From positions 1-31,276 of the IMG/VR virus record IMGVR_UViG_3300007541_000110: 31,276 bases of DNA; one strand, 5' to 3'. Below, one piece after another: positions 22,146 through 31,276 of this stretch. The notes under the pieces are model-generated. The model saw only the letters and a program-made list of their open reading frames with translations, was not told the origin of the DNA and did no database searches. Both the position numbers and the translations under genes were made by a program. How positions within the stretch are numbered: the first letter of the stretch is position 1; every line of letters begins with the position of its first letter. This stretch comes from a virus.

Positions 22146-22501
22146 AGCCTTACCAATACTCCGTTCTCATTCGTATACCATATGTCCTTGAATGTCTCGC
22201 AGCACCACCCAATGCAGTACTTGCAAGGGCGAGACATTCCAATGTTGCCAGTTGGAGAGATCCTTAGATTGACTAGTGTGCAATCTCGAGGATCAATACC
22301 TCTATCAATGTGGATTAGAGCCGACAACTCAGAGTGAATTGTCGGATACTTGTATCCCTTCTTGGCTGCAAGAGGATGAGTCTTTGCCCGATTCTCTTCG
22401 CCCACACTAACAATTCGACCTCGGTCAAGGAGAATACTATAGTGTGTTCTGACGCTTGGCTTGCAGATTCGTGCAAACCTAAGCAAATCTTCCAGATCCA
22501 T
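22142..22501 (-). CDS. dCMP/cytidine deaminase-like zinc protein
   Basis: 119 residues from the ATG at 22501 (GGAGAGA about eight bases upstream; an ORF opening at 22549 lies inside ThyX). The zinc motif of the cytidine deaminase superfamily is present: PTIHSELSAL (H56, catalytic E58) and SRPCKYCIGWC (C93, C96). Most family members have HAE or CAE; here it is HSE. dCMP deaminase turns dCMP into dUMP, which the adjacent ThyX methylates, so position supports that activity. It lacks the larger allosteric part of T4 dCMP deaminase (193 residues). Action on another base cannot be excluded. Confidence 0.8.
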   Translation of the reverse strand: MDLEDLLRFARICKPSVRTHYSILLDRGRIVSVGEENRAKTHPLAAKKGYKYPTIHSELSALIHIDRGIDPRDCTLVNLRISPTGNIGMSRPCKYCIGWCCETFKDIWYTNENGVLVRL

Positions 22502-23180
22502 TAGTAAGTTCTCTCCATGAAATTGGAAACAGCGCAGAACAGATTGCATCTACCCGTTCTGCATACAACTGAACCTCACGTTGTGCGTGACTGTCTACTC
22601 TCAATCCATACATTCTAGCCCAAGCATACAGGCTACCAGTCCAGATCCACTCAGTCATCATGCTCTGAGGCAATACCATTCTTGCCTGCTCGGCACAGAT
22701 ACCAGAGGCGATCATGTCCTTGTACAGCGTGTCAGCCTTACGATAGGATTGAATAGTATTCTCCACAAAGCCAGGGCTATTGTCATGTACTTCTGATGAA
22801 CTGCCCTGCTTTACATTGTCTGCCTGTAGTCTATACATGTCGGGATGCCAATAGGTTGGCGATGCCTTGACGTATCTGCGAGACACCTCGTTCCAAGCAA
22901 AGCCTACCTGATGCTTCTGCAATTGTCGTGCAATGAAGATAGGCGCAGCAAACCGAAGCTTCACCATACAATGTGAGAAGGGACTCCAATGATTGTGTTC
23001 AGCAAGATATCGAATGAGTCTTGCGTTCTGATCTACCGTGAATACATCGGCTGTTTTTGACATGCTGACTCTTGCCGCATCGCATACAGCCTCATCATCT
23101 CCCATACGGTCCACTAGTGAAACGATTTCCTGATGCTTGATTACATACGACTCTTGACTATCGAACTCAATGACCTTCAA
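22479..23180 (-). CDS. thyX: Flavin-dependent thymidylate synthase ThyX
   Basis: 233 residues starting at a TTG (23180) with AAAGGAGA at the right distance; a longer frame to 23228 would run into tRNA-Arg. Makes dTMP from dUMP using FAD and methylene-THF. Family regions: HNHWSPFSH (62-70), the signature block RQLQKHQVGFAWNEVSRRY (85-103), and RMVLPQSMMTEWIWTGSLYA. The classical ThyX motif RHRxxSxxxxSxR appears here as KHQxxFxxxxSRR, a variant I also associate with other marine phage ThyX proteins. It lies directly after the tRNA genes and a promoter-like core and overlaps the deaminase-like gene by 23 bases. Confidence 0.95.
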   Translation of the reverse strand: MKVIEFDSQESYVIKHQEIVSLVDRMGDDEAVCDAARVSMSKTADVFTVDQNARLIRYLAEHNHWSPFSHCMVKLRFAAPIFIARQLQKHQVGFAWNEVSRRYVKASPTYWHPDMYRLQADNVKQGSSSEVHDNSPGFVENTIQSYRKADTLYKDMIASGICAEQARMVLPQSMMTEWIWTGSLYAWARMYGLRVDSHAQREVQLYAERVDAICSALFPISWRELTNGSGRFA

Positions 23181-23677: not shown

Positions 23678-24036
23678 AGTTCATTAACCTCTACTGTAAA
23701 GTAACCTTCGTCTGCCCATTCCTTACGGGCAGCAATCTTGACAATTTGATTATCGTCTAACCAGACGATACCATTACACGAATCCAACACAGCCTTGACA
23801 TAGTTGTCAATATCTGGTCGTGGGTAATCCAACTTGGATGTCTTAGGTCTGGTGGGGTAGACCCCGATGGTGACATCAATAGGTCCAGCCATCGGGGTCC
23901 ACTCACCTAATACATCCACTATGATTGGTTGTACATCCTGACGAAAGGTCTTGTACGGACCTGAATAGTAGGATCCCCACTTGCTGACTCTCGGGCGTGA
24001 AGCCGCGACAGGGCTAATGGGAAACACCCACTGCAT
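23674..24036 (-). CDS. RusA-type Holliday junction resolvase
   Basis: A 120-residue endonuclease that resolves branched DNA, expected to act on recombination and replication intermediates before packaging. It has the RusA layout: an N-terminal strand (WVFPISPVAASRPRVSKWG), then the catalytic RPDIDNYVKAVLDSCNGIVWLDDNQI-type region with D75, D77 and D94/D95, where E. coli RusA has D70, D72 and D91, and a basic strand (KIAARKEW). E. coli RusA is also 120 residues. In T7 this job is done by gp3, an unrelated endonuclease, so this is a replacement. It follows SSB with a TGATG overlap. Confidence 0.92.
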   Translation of the reverse strand: MQWVFPISPVAASRPRVSKWGSYYSGPYKTFRQDVQPIIVDVLGEWTPMAGPIDVTIGVYPTRPKTSKLDYPRPDIDNYVKAVLDSCNGIVWLDDNQIVKIAARKEWADEGYFTVEVNEL

Positions 24037-24587
24037 CAGAATGGAACCTCGTCATCCGTAATGCCTACGGCAGGCTGAACCACAGTTGGCTCAGTCTTGC
24101 TTGGGGTAGGAGCAGTCTCACCCACAAACCCGCCGTCAATAGCATCGAACCCGTTGGTACGTGGACTATAGTCATCGCTATTCTTCTCAATGATCTGAAC
24201 ACCATTAAGATAGAATGACATAGCCTTCGTTGGCTTAGTCAGTACAACAGGAGCAAGCTTAAGACGAACAATATCACCCTTGAACGGAACAGCTGTAGTG
24301 TACTGTGCCGACGCATCTTGACACGGGAACGAACCCTTGTCAATGTGTGTCTTGCTCTTGAACTTGATGGTCTTGGGTGAGTCTTCATCCTTCTGATAGA
24401 TTCCATTGATCTTCTTACATCCGTTCTCCGCTGCAATACGCTTAAGTTCTGCCTCGAGTTCGGGGGTGAGTTCCACCGAAACATTATGATTGGCAGACGC
24501 CTCGCCAAACTGTGCGTCAGGCTTTGAAAGCGAAGACCAAGTCACGACAAGCTTACCAGTGATAATGTTCTTGATACGATCAGCCAT
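24036..24587 (-). CDS. Single-stranded DNA-binding protein (T7 gp2.5-like)
   Basis: A 183-residue OB-fold protein assigned by size, position and features. The N-terminal half (GKLVVTWSSLSKPDAQFGEA through KTIKFKSKTHIDKG) corresponds to the T7 gp2.5 ssDNA-binding domain with its aromatic and basic residues. LKLAPVVL and MSFYLNGVQIIEK are core strands. A Pro/Thr-rich linker leads to the acidic tail GITDDEVPF ending in Phe, the same logic as T7 gp2.5, whose acidic C-terminus with terminal Phe contacts polymerase and helicase. T7 gp2.5 is 232 residues. AAGGAG stands just before the ATG at 24587. Confidence 0.88.
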   Translation of the reverse strand: MADRIKNIITGKLVVTWSSLSKPDAQFGEASANHNVSVELTPELEAELKRIAAENGCKKINGIYQKDEDSPKTIKFKSKTHIDKGSFPCQDASAQYTTAVPFKGDIVRLKLAPVVLTKPTKAMSFYLNGVQIIEKNSDDYSPRTNGFDAIDGGFVGETAPTPSKTEPTVVQPAVGITDDEVPF

Positions 24588-28631: not shown

Positions 28632-28691
28632 ATACCTCCTCTAGGCTTGTTCTGTATGGGTTGATTCACGCAAGGAACGCCCTCGCTTGTG

Positions 28692-28739: not shown

Positions 28740-28889
28740 TCAACGATCCTCCTCCTCGTCATACCAGTCCTCATCATCATCGTCGGGATCTTCGCCAACA
28801 TACTCCCACCCATTATTGTATCCAGCCTCACACCGCTCCTCCCACAGAGCATCGACATCGGGGAAGTACTCGTCATCATCAACAAACAT
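28740..28889 (-). CDS. 49-residue extremely acidic protein
   Basis: Short ORF from the ATG at 28889 to a TGA at 28740, with AAGGAG about ten bases upstream. It begins MFVDDDEYFPDVDALWEERC and ends in DEEEDR. By my count 23 of 49 residues are Asp or Glu and only two are Arg, with five aromatic Tyr/Trp/Phe side chains in the core part, so net charge is near -21. Small acidic early phage proteins often mimic DNA (T7 Ocr, T4 Arn) or bind host RNA polymerase; the position, just before the phage RNA polymerase gene at the end of the early region, fits such a role. No homology is visible to me; this is inferred from charge and place. Confidence 0.7.
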   Translation of the reverse strand: MFVDDDEYFPDVDALWEERCEAGYNNGWEYVGEDPDDDDEDWYDEEEDR

Positions 28890-28893
28890 TAGA

Positions 28894-29139
28894 TCACCAC
28901 TCCTTATTCATAGAGTCAACCACACGGTCAAGAAGTTCAGACTGACAGAAGTCATCAATGTCAAGGTGATTATTGGACTTTGCAGACTTGATCTCCATAG
29001 CCTCGAAATCCTCTACCGATTCAGCGTCAACAAAGTGTAGACCAAGGTCTGGCATAGTGTAGGTAATCCTACCAGACACATAGTAACCCTGCTCATCCAT
29101 TTCAATATAGGTGTTGGTAAAGTACTCGGTACTTGTCAC
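28894..29139 (-). CDS. Small uncharacterised early protein
   Basis: An 81-residue acidic protein from a GTG at 29139 that overlaps the preceding stop by four bases (GTGA). It has a beta-like N-terminal half (YIEMDEQGYYVSGRITYTMP) and a helical acidic C-terminal half (DIDDFCQSELLDRVVDSMNK). No family recognised. It is one of a chain of coupled early genes and is separated from the acidic mini-gene by four bases, so they are probably co-expressed. Confidence 0.7.
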   Translation of the reverse strand: MTSTEYFTNTYIEMDEQGYYVSGRITYTMPDLGLHFVDAESVEDFEAMEIKSAKSNNHLDIDDFCQSELLDRVVDSMNKEW

Positions 29140-29360
29140 TTATTGATATCCTTATGATAGGTGCTGGTAATCTTATACGGACCATTGAGTGAAATACCAG
29201 ACCACACAACTTCAACACGACCATCAATGATAGCCTCGAGAAGTTCCATAAGATCATACAGTGCGTCCTTGATATCCTGATCCGTTTCCTTGATAGTAAC
29301 AAGAGAGACATACTCTGCCTGCTTCTCGAGCAGTGCGAGATTCACGATAGGAACACTCAC
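29136..29360 (-). CDS. Small uncharacterised early protein
   Basis: A 74-residue protein from a GTG at 29360 (GTGA overlap with the preceding stop). A long N-terminal helical region (LALLEKQAEYVSLVTIKETD and DIKDALYDLMELLEAIIDGR) is followed by beta-strands (VEVVWSGISLNGPYKITST). The short alpha-beta fold resembles other early-region mini-proteins only in general form. Function unknown. Confidence 0.7.
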   Translation of the reverse strand: MSVPIVNLALLEKQAEYVSLVTIKETDQDIKDALYDLMELLEAIIDGRVEVVWSGISLNGPYKITSTYHKDINK

Positions 29361-29698
29361 TGGATAGCCTCCTTGATAGCGGTGATGATAGTCTTGCGAC
29401 CATCCTCAGTAGAGAAGAACTTGGTCAGTGCCGAACCAATCATATTAGCGTCGAGAACATCGGAGACAGCGTCGTGGATAACATCCCTATTGTCATCAAT
29501 GTAATCCTTAGTTGCACGACTGACAACCCAGTCACTGATATGCTCGCTAGGATCAAAGTCATACGAGAAGTAGTTCGTTACTGCGTCCGAAATCTCATCG
29601 GAAACCATACTACGATCAATCTCAATCTCGGACTTCTCATTAGCAATGAGATTCTTGAGGTACTTCTCAAACTCATTCACGATATTCTCAGTAGTCAT
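29357..29698 (-). CDS. Uncharacterised acidic early protein
   Basis: A 113-residue, acidic, mainly helical protein (IVNEFEKYLKNLIANEKSEI, then EISDAVTNYFSYDFDPSEHI and KDYIDDNRDVIHDAVSDVLD). No Cys, no membrane segment. GGAG lies about nine bases before the ATG at 29698, which itself is inside the end of the small membrane-protein gene. No family recognised. It is coupled to the next gene by a GTGA overlap. Confidence 0.7.
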   Translation of the reverse strand: MTTENIVNEFEKYLKNLIANEKSEIEIDRSMVSDEISDAVTNYFSYDFDPSEHISDWVVSRATKDYIDDNRDVIHDAVSDVLDANMIGSALTKFFSTEDGRKTIITAIKEAIQ

Positions 29699-31271: not shown

Positions 31272-31276
31272 AGGAA

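Follow-up and report, generated by a model that had tools for sequence, protein, structure and literature searches.

A very small and highly acidic protein encoded before a T7-type RNA polymerase gene: a conserved phage gene and a possible nucleic-acid mimic

Background

The open reading frame (ORF) that lies just before the T7-type RNA polymerase (RNAP) gene of a virus from IMG/VR is only 49 codons long, and raises the questions of whether it constitutes a gene and of what a product with almost half acidic residues could do during infection. The window, i.e. the whole stretch of DNA analysed here, corresponds to an IMG/VR virus record 31,276 bases long, in which all ORFs longer than 221 aa lie on the minus strand. 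The RNAP gene is followed by those of a gp2.5-like protein, a thymidylate synthase, a primase/helicase and a DNA polymerase, and further genes encode a ribonucleotide reductase, a head-tail adaptor and a tail protein. The gp2.5-like protein (24036-24587) shows a weak match to PHROG 112 (E 8.7e-06) and none to Pfam at E up to 0.1, and its C-terminal tip is DDEVPF, which we take to resemble the tip of bacterial SSB. Upstream of the RNAP gene are small genes of mostly unknown function, one of them with an Api92-like ferredoxin domain (PF18406, E 8.8e-08), the acidic ORF being the last of the series. In the 64.7-kb record of a relative, the small genes upstream of the RNAP sit between it and an ORF of 3247 aa (23,242-32,985).

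An earlier examination of the DNA without database searches (hereafter the sequence-only reading) had proposed an easily missed small gene at the end of the early region, preceded by a strong Shine-Dalgarno sequence, with a product looking like the DNA-mimic antirestriction proteins or RNA polymerase inhibitors of phages. Its assignment to the end of the early region comes entirely from gene order, the ORF being the last one before a T7-type RNAP; this order and the analogy with T7 suggest an early expression. The features discussed below are located in Table 1.

Table 1. Location of the acidic gene and of neighbouring features in the window
Feature	Position	Strand	Remarks
Acidic 49-aa protein gene, MFVDDDEYFPDVDALWEERCEAGYNNGWEYVGEDPDDDDEDWYDEEEDR	28740..28889	minus	ATG start; conserved in L002 (= L003)
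Shine-Dalgarno AAGGAG	28900..28905	minus	ends 10 nt before the ATG, within the last codons of the upstream 81-aa gene
Upstream 81-aa gene	28894..29139	minus	stop 4 nt before the start of the acidic ORF
113-aa gene	29357..29698	minus	relatives upstream of the slot in L007, L008, L009 and L082 (4/9 loci searched)
TGTGGATAACTTGTGA with the perfect DnaA-box sequence TGTGGATAA	28719..28734	minus	just after the acidic gene
Stem-loop GCGAGG-GCGTT-CCTTGC	28670..28686	minus	between the acidic gene and the RNAP gene
T7-type single-subunit RNA polymerase, 809 aa	26202..28631	minus	PHROG 414, E 1.3e-159; right flank of the slot

Results and discussion

A gene with an extreme composition

The product of the ORF would contain 13 Asp and 10 Glu (23 acidic residues, 47%), two Arg, no Lys and no His, for a net charge of -21 (K+R minus D+E), in agreement with the sequence-only reading. 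Among 3604 distinct six-frame ORFs of 40-80 aa, drawn from the window and loci L001-L126 and each read from its first start codon, it ranks first for acidity; 34% D/E is reached by 10 of these ORFs, 40% by three and 46% by one. The homologue from L002, described below, enters this set at 31% D/E, there being an upstream start codon in its frame. On its minus strand the window has 42 non-overlapping ORFs of 60 aa or more, whose D/E content has a median of 14.1% and a maximum of 26.6%. As to the strong Shine-Dalgarno sequence announced beforehand, a good AAGGAG is present, at a slightly wide spacing from the start codon (Table 1).

The search for conserved homologues revealed a 48-aa protein, 94% identical to that of the window, in the records IMGVR_UViG_3300036770_008710 and IMGVR_UViG_3300035670_000195; the two relative loci fetched (L002 and L003) are identical in sequence and count as one independent relative. 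Frameshifts, which the sequence-only reading named as evidence against a gene, were not seen in this relative, the single indel being the loss of one whole codon with the frame kept. In L002 an extra 73-aa gene is inserted between the 81-aa gene and the acidic ORF, which has thus a different upstream neighbour and a separate AAGGAGG, ending 6 nt before the ATG and located inside the end of the 73-aa gene. The comparison of the two acidic genes gave a dS of 0.27, a dN of 0.026 and an omega (dN/dS) of 0.10, a rough estimate from one sequence pair, and the nine substitutions lead to three amino acid changes where 7.1 would be expected at random (p = 0.0018).

Together, the homologue with its in-frame codon loss, the different neighbour, the separate Shine-Dalgarno sequence and the low omega show that 28740-28889 is a genuine gene, under purifying selection. 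A chance, untranslated ORF is scarcely credible: its shortness and the lack of matches in the libraries searched would suit such an explanation, but the omega of 0.10, the in-frame indel and the ribosome-binding sites found in two gene contexts stand against it. The proposal of a genuine and easily missed small gene in the presumed early region is thereby upheld by the homologue and the omega, as well as by the first rank in acidity and the clade-wide slot presented below. An ORF of about 50 codons preceding an RNA polymerase gene is thus maintained by selection, although the family libraries searched contain nothing that matches it.

Searches in databases and structure prediction

No match to the window protein was retrieved from Pfam, PHROGs (E up to 1), NCBIfam (E up to 0.1) or PDB sequences (E up to 10), nor, at E up to 10, for this protein or its counterpart in L084 from 50,697 records of GenBank phages. 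In all these family and database searches, low-complexity and bias filters penalise acidic sequences, so that distant relatives were possibly overlooked, and the confirmed matches to the relatives' homologue span residues 1-32 only. Genome scans gave 21 pattern matches with the slot family described below and 30 matches with the RNAP, none of either being confirmed. No published description of the 49-aa protein was recognised in literature searches.

AlphaFold2 models of the window protein (three rows, two of them distinct) have a mean pLDDT of 59.4 and a pTM of 0.26, and the single-chain model, of low confidence, displays helices at residues 5-8 and 12-21 only. Owing to this low confidence, the model offers no fold whose charge pattern could be set against that of DNA. 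For the slot family (eight rows), the models are likewise of low confidence (pLDDT 56.0, pTM 0.20), with helices at 12-22 and 31-36.

An acidic slot upstream of the RNAP gene across the clade

Related loci were collected by scanning viral contigs with the RNAP (one locus in a first scan, 68 in another and the best 80 of 202 in a third) and, in two scans, with the slot family (5 and 11 loci). The slot was assessed on the 91 loci that include the RNAP start together with 600 nt or more of preceding sequence, 57 of them non-redundant, and was scored as the most acidic ORF of 40-90 aa in the stretch, any start codon being accepted. An ORF with at least 34% D/E occurs within 600 nt upstream of the RNAP gene in 10 of the 10 non-redundant loci whose RNAP is at least 48% identical to that of the window (window included). 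The same holds for one (L097) of the 47 more distant non-redundant loci, whose RNAP is no more than 43% identical to that of the window; two others, L013 and L048, reach a D/E fraction of 0.30. Such an ORF is therefore mostly missing near the RNAP gene of these distant phages (46 of 47), which counts against the mimic reading presented below.

The same threshold was reached in 0/50, 2/47, 2/46, 1/44 and 4/41 of the control stretches taken further upstream (total 9/228), in 1/56, 0/55, 0/55, 0/55 and 1/55 of those taken downstream, and in 0/57 on the opposite strand. Acidic small ORFs hence occur elsewhere too, as the upstream controls show, and acidity by itself is no proof of mimicry.

In eight of the ten clade loci, the slot is filled by a second family, characterised by the core FIDEYHC-x-DYW followed by an acidic tail. 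This slot family was found on 12 contigs as nine distinct proteins (L007, L008, L009, L082, L083, L084, L085, L092 and L133, plus identical copies), with FIDEMHC and WIDELNC as core variants. Residues M1, D11, I19, D20, E21, C24, D26, Y27 and W28 (L084 numbering) are invariant in the eight aligned members, and the eight proteins computed contain 34-44% D/E and 0-2 K/R. The conservation of this aromatic core suggests a specific partner or docking site rather than bulk charge. When 10 early proteins of the window were compared with nine clade loci, relatives of the 113-aa protein were found in four of them (Table 1) and relatives of a 66-aa protein in eight; the other eight proteins, including the acidic one, had no match in these loci at E up to 0.05.

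More distant phages (L013:3539-3688, L018:3853-4044 and L048:3825-3986) encode, just before the RNAP start or overlapping it, small proteins that are rich in Cys (CxC/CxxC) and end in acidic tails. Merging them with the acidic proteins described here was considered and set aside, as none has a match above the Pfam cut-off or to a PHROG at E < 0.1.

One family or two

The window protein and the slot family share their position, within 600 nt upstream of the RNAP gene, and a D/E content of at least 34%, but the core FIDEYHC-x-DYW is absent from the window protein. Alignments between them gave a best pairwise z of 1.5 (family-wide max-z p = 0.38, sum-z p = 0.29, gap open 10), and the score of the window protein against the slot family profile ranks 1369 of 3001 among composition-matched shuffles. 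Aligning FVDD..EYFPDVDAL with FIDEYHCTDYWVDTDAL is tempting by eye as a sign of homology, and fails against composition-matched shuffles. The window protein may have diverged beyond recognition, or it may be a replacement.

The DNA at the end of the gene provides a clue on their position. At least TGTGGATAACTT coincides with the end of the acidic gene, or directly follows it, in the window, L002, L084, L085, L092, L131 and L133, and it overlaps the stop codon of this gene in L084, L085, L092, L131 and L133. It is absent from the end of the acidic gene in L007, L008, L009, L082 and L083, and was therefore present in five of the ten slot-family loci read. This shared DNA favours the same place for the window gene and the slot-family genes. 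The clade-wide slot offers two sequence families for side-by-side testing. Hairpins with NCGTT loops and different stems were also predicted by folding in L002, L007 and L008, comparable in loop to the stem-loop of the window (Table 1). A replication origin was considered from the DnaA box and rejected, the window having 10 matches with at most one mismatch (two perfect) for 8.8 expected.

The acidic gene travels with the early cassette

Identity between the window and L002, read in blocks of 150 columns, is 0.78-0.95 from position 31,276 to 30,377 and 0.84-0.97 from there to 28,894. In the slot it is 0.92 over the first 109 aligned bases and 0.78 over the last part of the acidic gene with the intergenic stretch, and it falls to 0.61-0.77 in the first kilobase of the RNAP gene, whose dS is 1.12 for 0.27 in the acidic gene. 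The acidic gene thus goes with the early cassette and not with the RNAP allele, which argues against an obligate partnership with this allele.

This bears on an alternative that we consider doubtful, in which the protein would be an adaptor for the phage machinery and bind the neighbouring phage RNAP or replication proteins, like the acidic tails of SSB. The acidic ORF upstream of the RNAP gene in all ten clade loci and the conserved aromatic core of the slot family are in its favour. It is weakened by the association of the gene with the early cassette rather than with the RNAP allele, by the other small gene that intervenes between the acidic ORF and the RNAP gene in L007 and L009, and by the acidic tip already carried by the phage's own gp2.5-like protein.

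A possible polyanionic mimic of nucleic acids

Our preferred reading, held tentatively, is that the acidic protein is an early host-takeover polyanion mimicking nucleic acids and working like gp5.9, Ocr or SPO1 Gp44; it is put forward because charge, size and place fit and because these three proteins provide precedents. The conserved frame and purifying selection, the first rank in acidity, the acidic slot of the clade and the association with the early cassette also count in its favour, while the low-confidence models, the alignments reported below and the conserved aromatic core of the slot family count against it. T7 gp5.9 is a small acidic DNA mimic that competes with DNA on RecBCD and MukBEF and blocks both (PMC9836394, PMC7617805). 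The region of SPO1 Gp44 that is probably disordered consists of 57% Asp/Glu and interacts with the beta and beta-prime subunits of RNAP (PMC8208478). Ocr, likewise acidic, mimics DNA and enables T7 to overcome EcoKI and BREX (PMC7261183).

In the small product, a single short helix at about residues 12-21 would probably lead into a flexible tail rich in Asp, Glu, Trp and Tyr. Carrying a charge like that of DNA or RNA, this polyanion could attach to the basic surface with which a protein contacts nucleic acids, and would thereby block or retune this target around the switch from host transcription to the phage RNA polymerase. The likeliest target would be a host enzyme: RNA polymerase, a nuclease, or a protein of defence or of chromosome organisation. 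The analysis establishes the gene, its extreme charge, the purifying selection, its place and the clade-wide acidic slot, from which we infer the early timing, the disorder of the tail, the charge mimicry and this class of target. The 49-aa protein would then be a newly found small acidic phage protein of an already known functional kind and, if the mimicry is true, a very small and unusually acidic charge mimic, exceeding Ocr, gp5.9 and p56 per residue (net charge per residue, by the same computation: -0.43 for the window protein, -0.24 for Ocr, -0.15 for gp5.9, -0.12 for p56 and -0.08 for gp2).

None of the known proteins could be equated with it. T7 gp5.9 is similarly phage-encoded, acidic and of comparable size (52 vs 49 aa), but contains 25% D/E and five K/R where the window protein contains 47% D/E and two Arg; it is a parallel coiled-coil dimer, while the low-confidence single-chain model of the window protein shows short helices, its gene adjoins an exonuclease gene and not an RNAP gene, and the alignment does not exceed shuffles (p = 0.79). 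Residues 56-122 of SPO1 Gp44 share the extreme Asp/Glu content, are probably disordered and act in a host-takeover setting (PMC8208478); Gp44, from a Bacillus phage, is however a protein of 27 kDa and three domains, with a folded N-terminal domain in addition to the disordered acidic region that binds RNAP. The host RNA polymerase inhibitor T7 gp2 is small and comes from a phage whose RNAP is of this type too, but is weakly acidic (16% D/E, net -5), and its alignment does not exceed shuffles (p = 0.22). DNA mimics differ widely in structure, gp5.9 and Gam being unlike in sequence and fold (PMC9836394), so that the failed membership tests weaken the statement that the protein is an Ocr, not the statement that it works like one. 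The sequence-only reading is thus supported in part: the DNA mimic, antirestriction protein or RNA polymerase inhibitor that it proposed is compatible in size, charge and place, and lacks an alignment above shuffles, a family match or a confident fold.

A function like that of Ocr proper, in antirestriction or anti-defence, guarding the incoming DNA from type I restriction, BREX or similar systems, is quite unlikely. Charge, small size, presumed early expression and the documented action of Ocr on EcoKI and BREX agree with it, Ocr being also an acidic protein from the T7 early region. Ocr is nonetheless a DNA-shaped dimer of 117 aa with 29% D/E, more than twice as long as the window protein (49 aa, 47% D/E), which has no Pfam match and no alignment to Ocr above shuffles (p = 0.84); moreover, the window ORF is the last before the RNAP gene, while T7 gene 0.3 is the first coding gene.

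A uracil-DNA glycosylase inhibitor of the phi29 p56 kind is highly improbable. The size is similar (49 vs 56 aa), and the p56 pattern E-x(2)-Y-x(0,2)-G (PMC10303552) occurs as EAGYNNG at residues 21-27, but it also occurs in 14.7% of composition-matched shuffles and in none of the four slot-family proteins tested, and p56 aligns with the window protein no better than with shuffles (p = 0.245). The ESI motif of the Ugi type, searched with the strict published pattern, is not found in the window protein.

The runs of Asp, and the D-x-D-G-like stretches of the slot family, could also indicate a metal-binding or general buffering peptide with no specific nucleic-acid enzyme as target. We judge this very unlikely, as the window protein has no D-x-D-G-like stretch and the slot family alignment, by our reading, lacks canonical EF-hand spacing.

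A more specific version of the mimic is unlikely as a whole: in this T7-type clade (contigs up to 68 kb), probably with planctomycete-like hosts, the slot would be kept for a mostly disordered polyanion of about 50 residues, supplied by two families that are unrelated or diverged past recognition, and this minimal acidic plug would close the nucleic-acid channel of the host RNAP so that transcription passes to the phage enzyme.

Other observations in the relatives

An exported-looking protein ending in APTPGVVALLGLAGLVSRRRR is encoded at L127:9222-9863 (record G002, 22221-22862) and in L144-L147, i.e. in five of the 12 clade records searched, some of them fragments; the other four proteins are 58-60% identical to the first, and the tails were read in four of the five records. 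A search of 50,697 phage records at E up to 0.01 retrieved nothing matching it, and NCBIfam returned other CTERM models alone, below their cut-offs. The tail resembles PEP-CTERM sorting tails and would suggest a host with exosortase-type sorting, perhaps from the Planctomycetota. Upstream of the slot in L083 (2819-3535), a secreted-looking protein of 239 aa contains a dockerin type I domain (PF00404, E 2.7e-8, above the cut-off), and the record of a relative carries three tRNA genes, Arg-tct, Lys-ttt and Leu-caa (L129:7533-7761).
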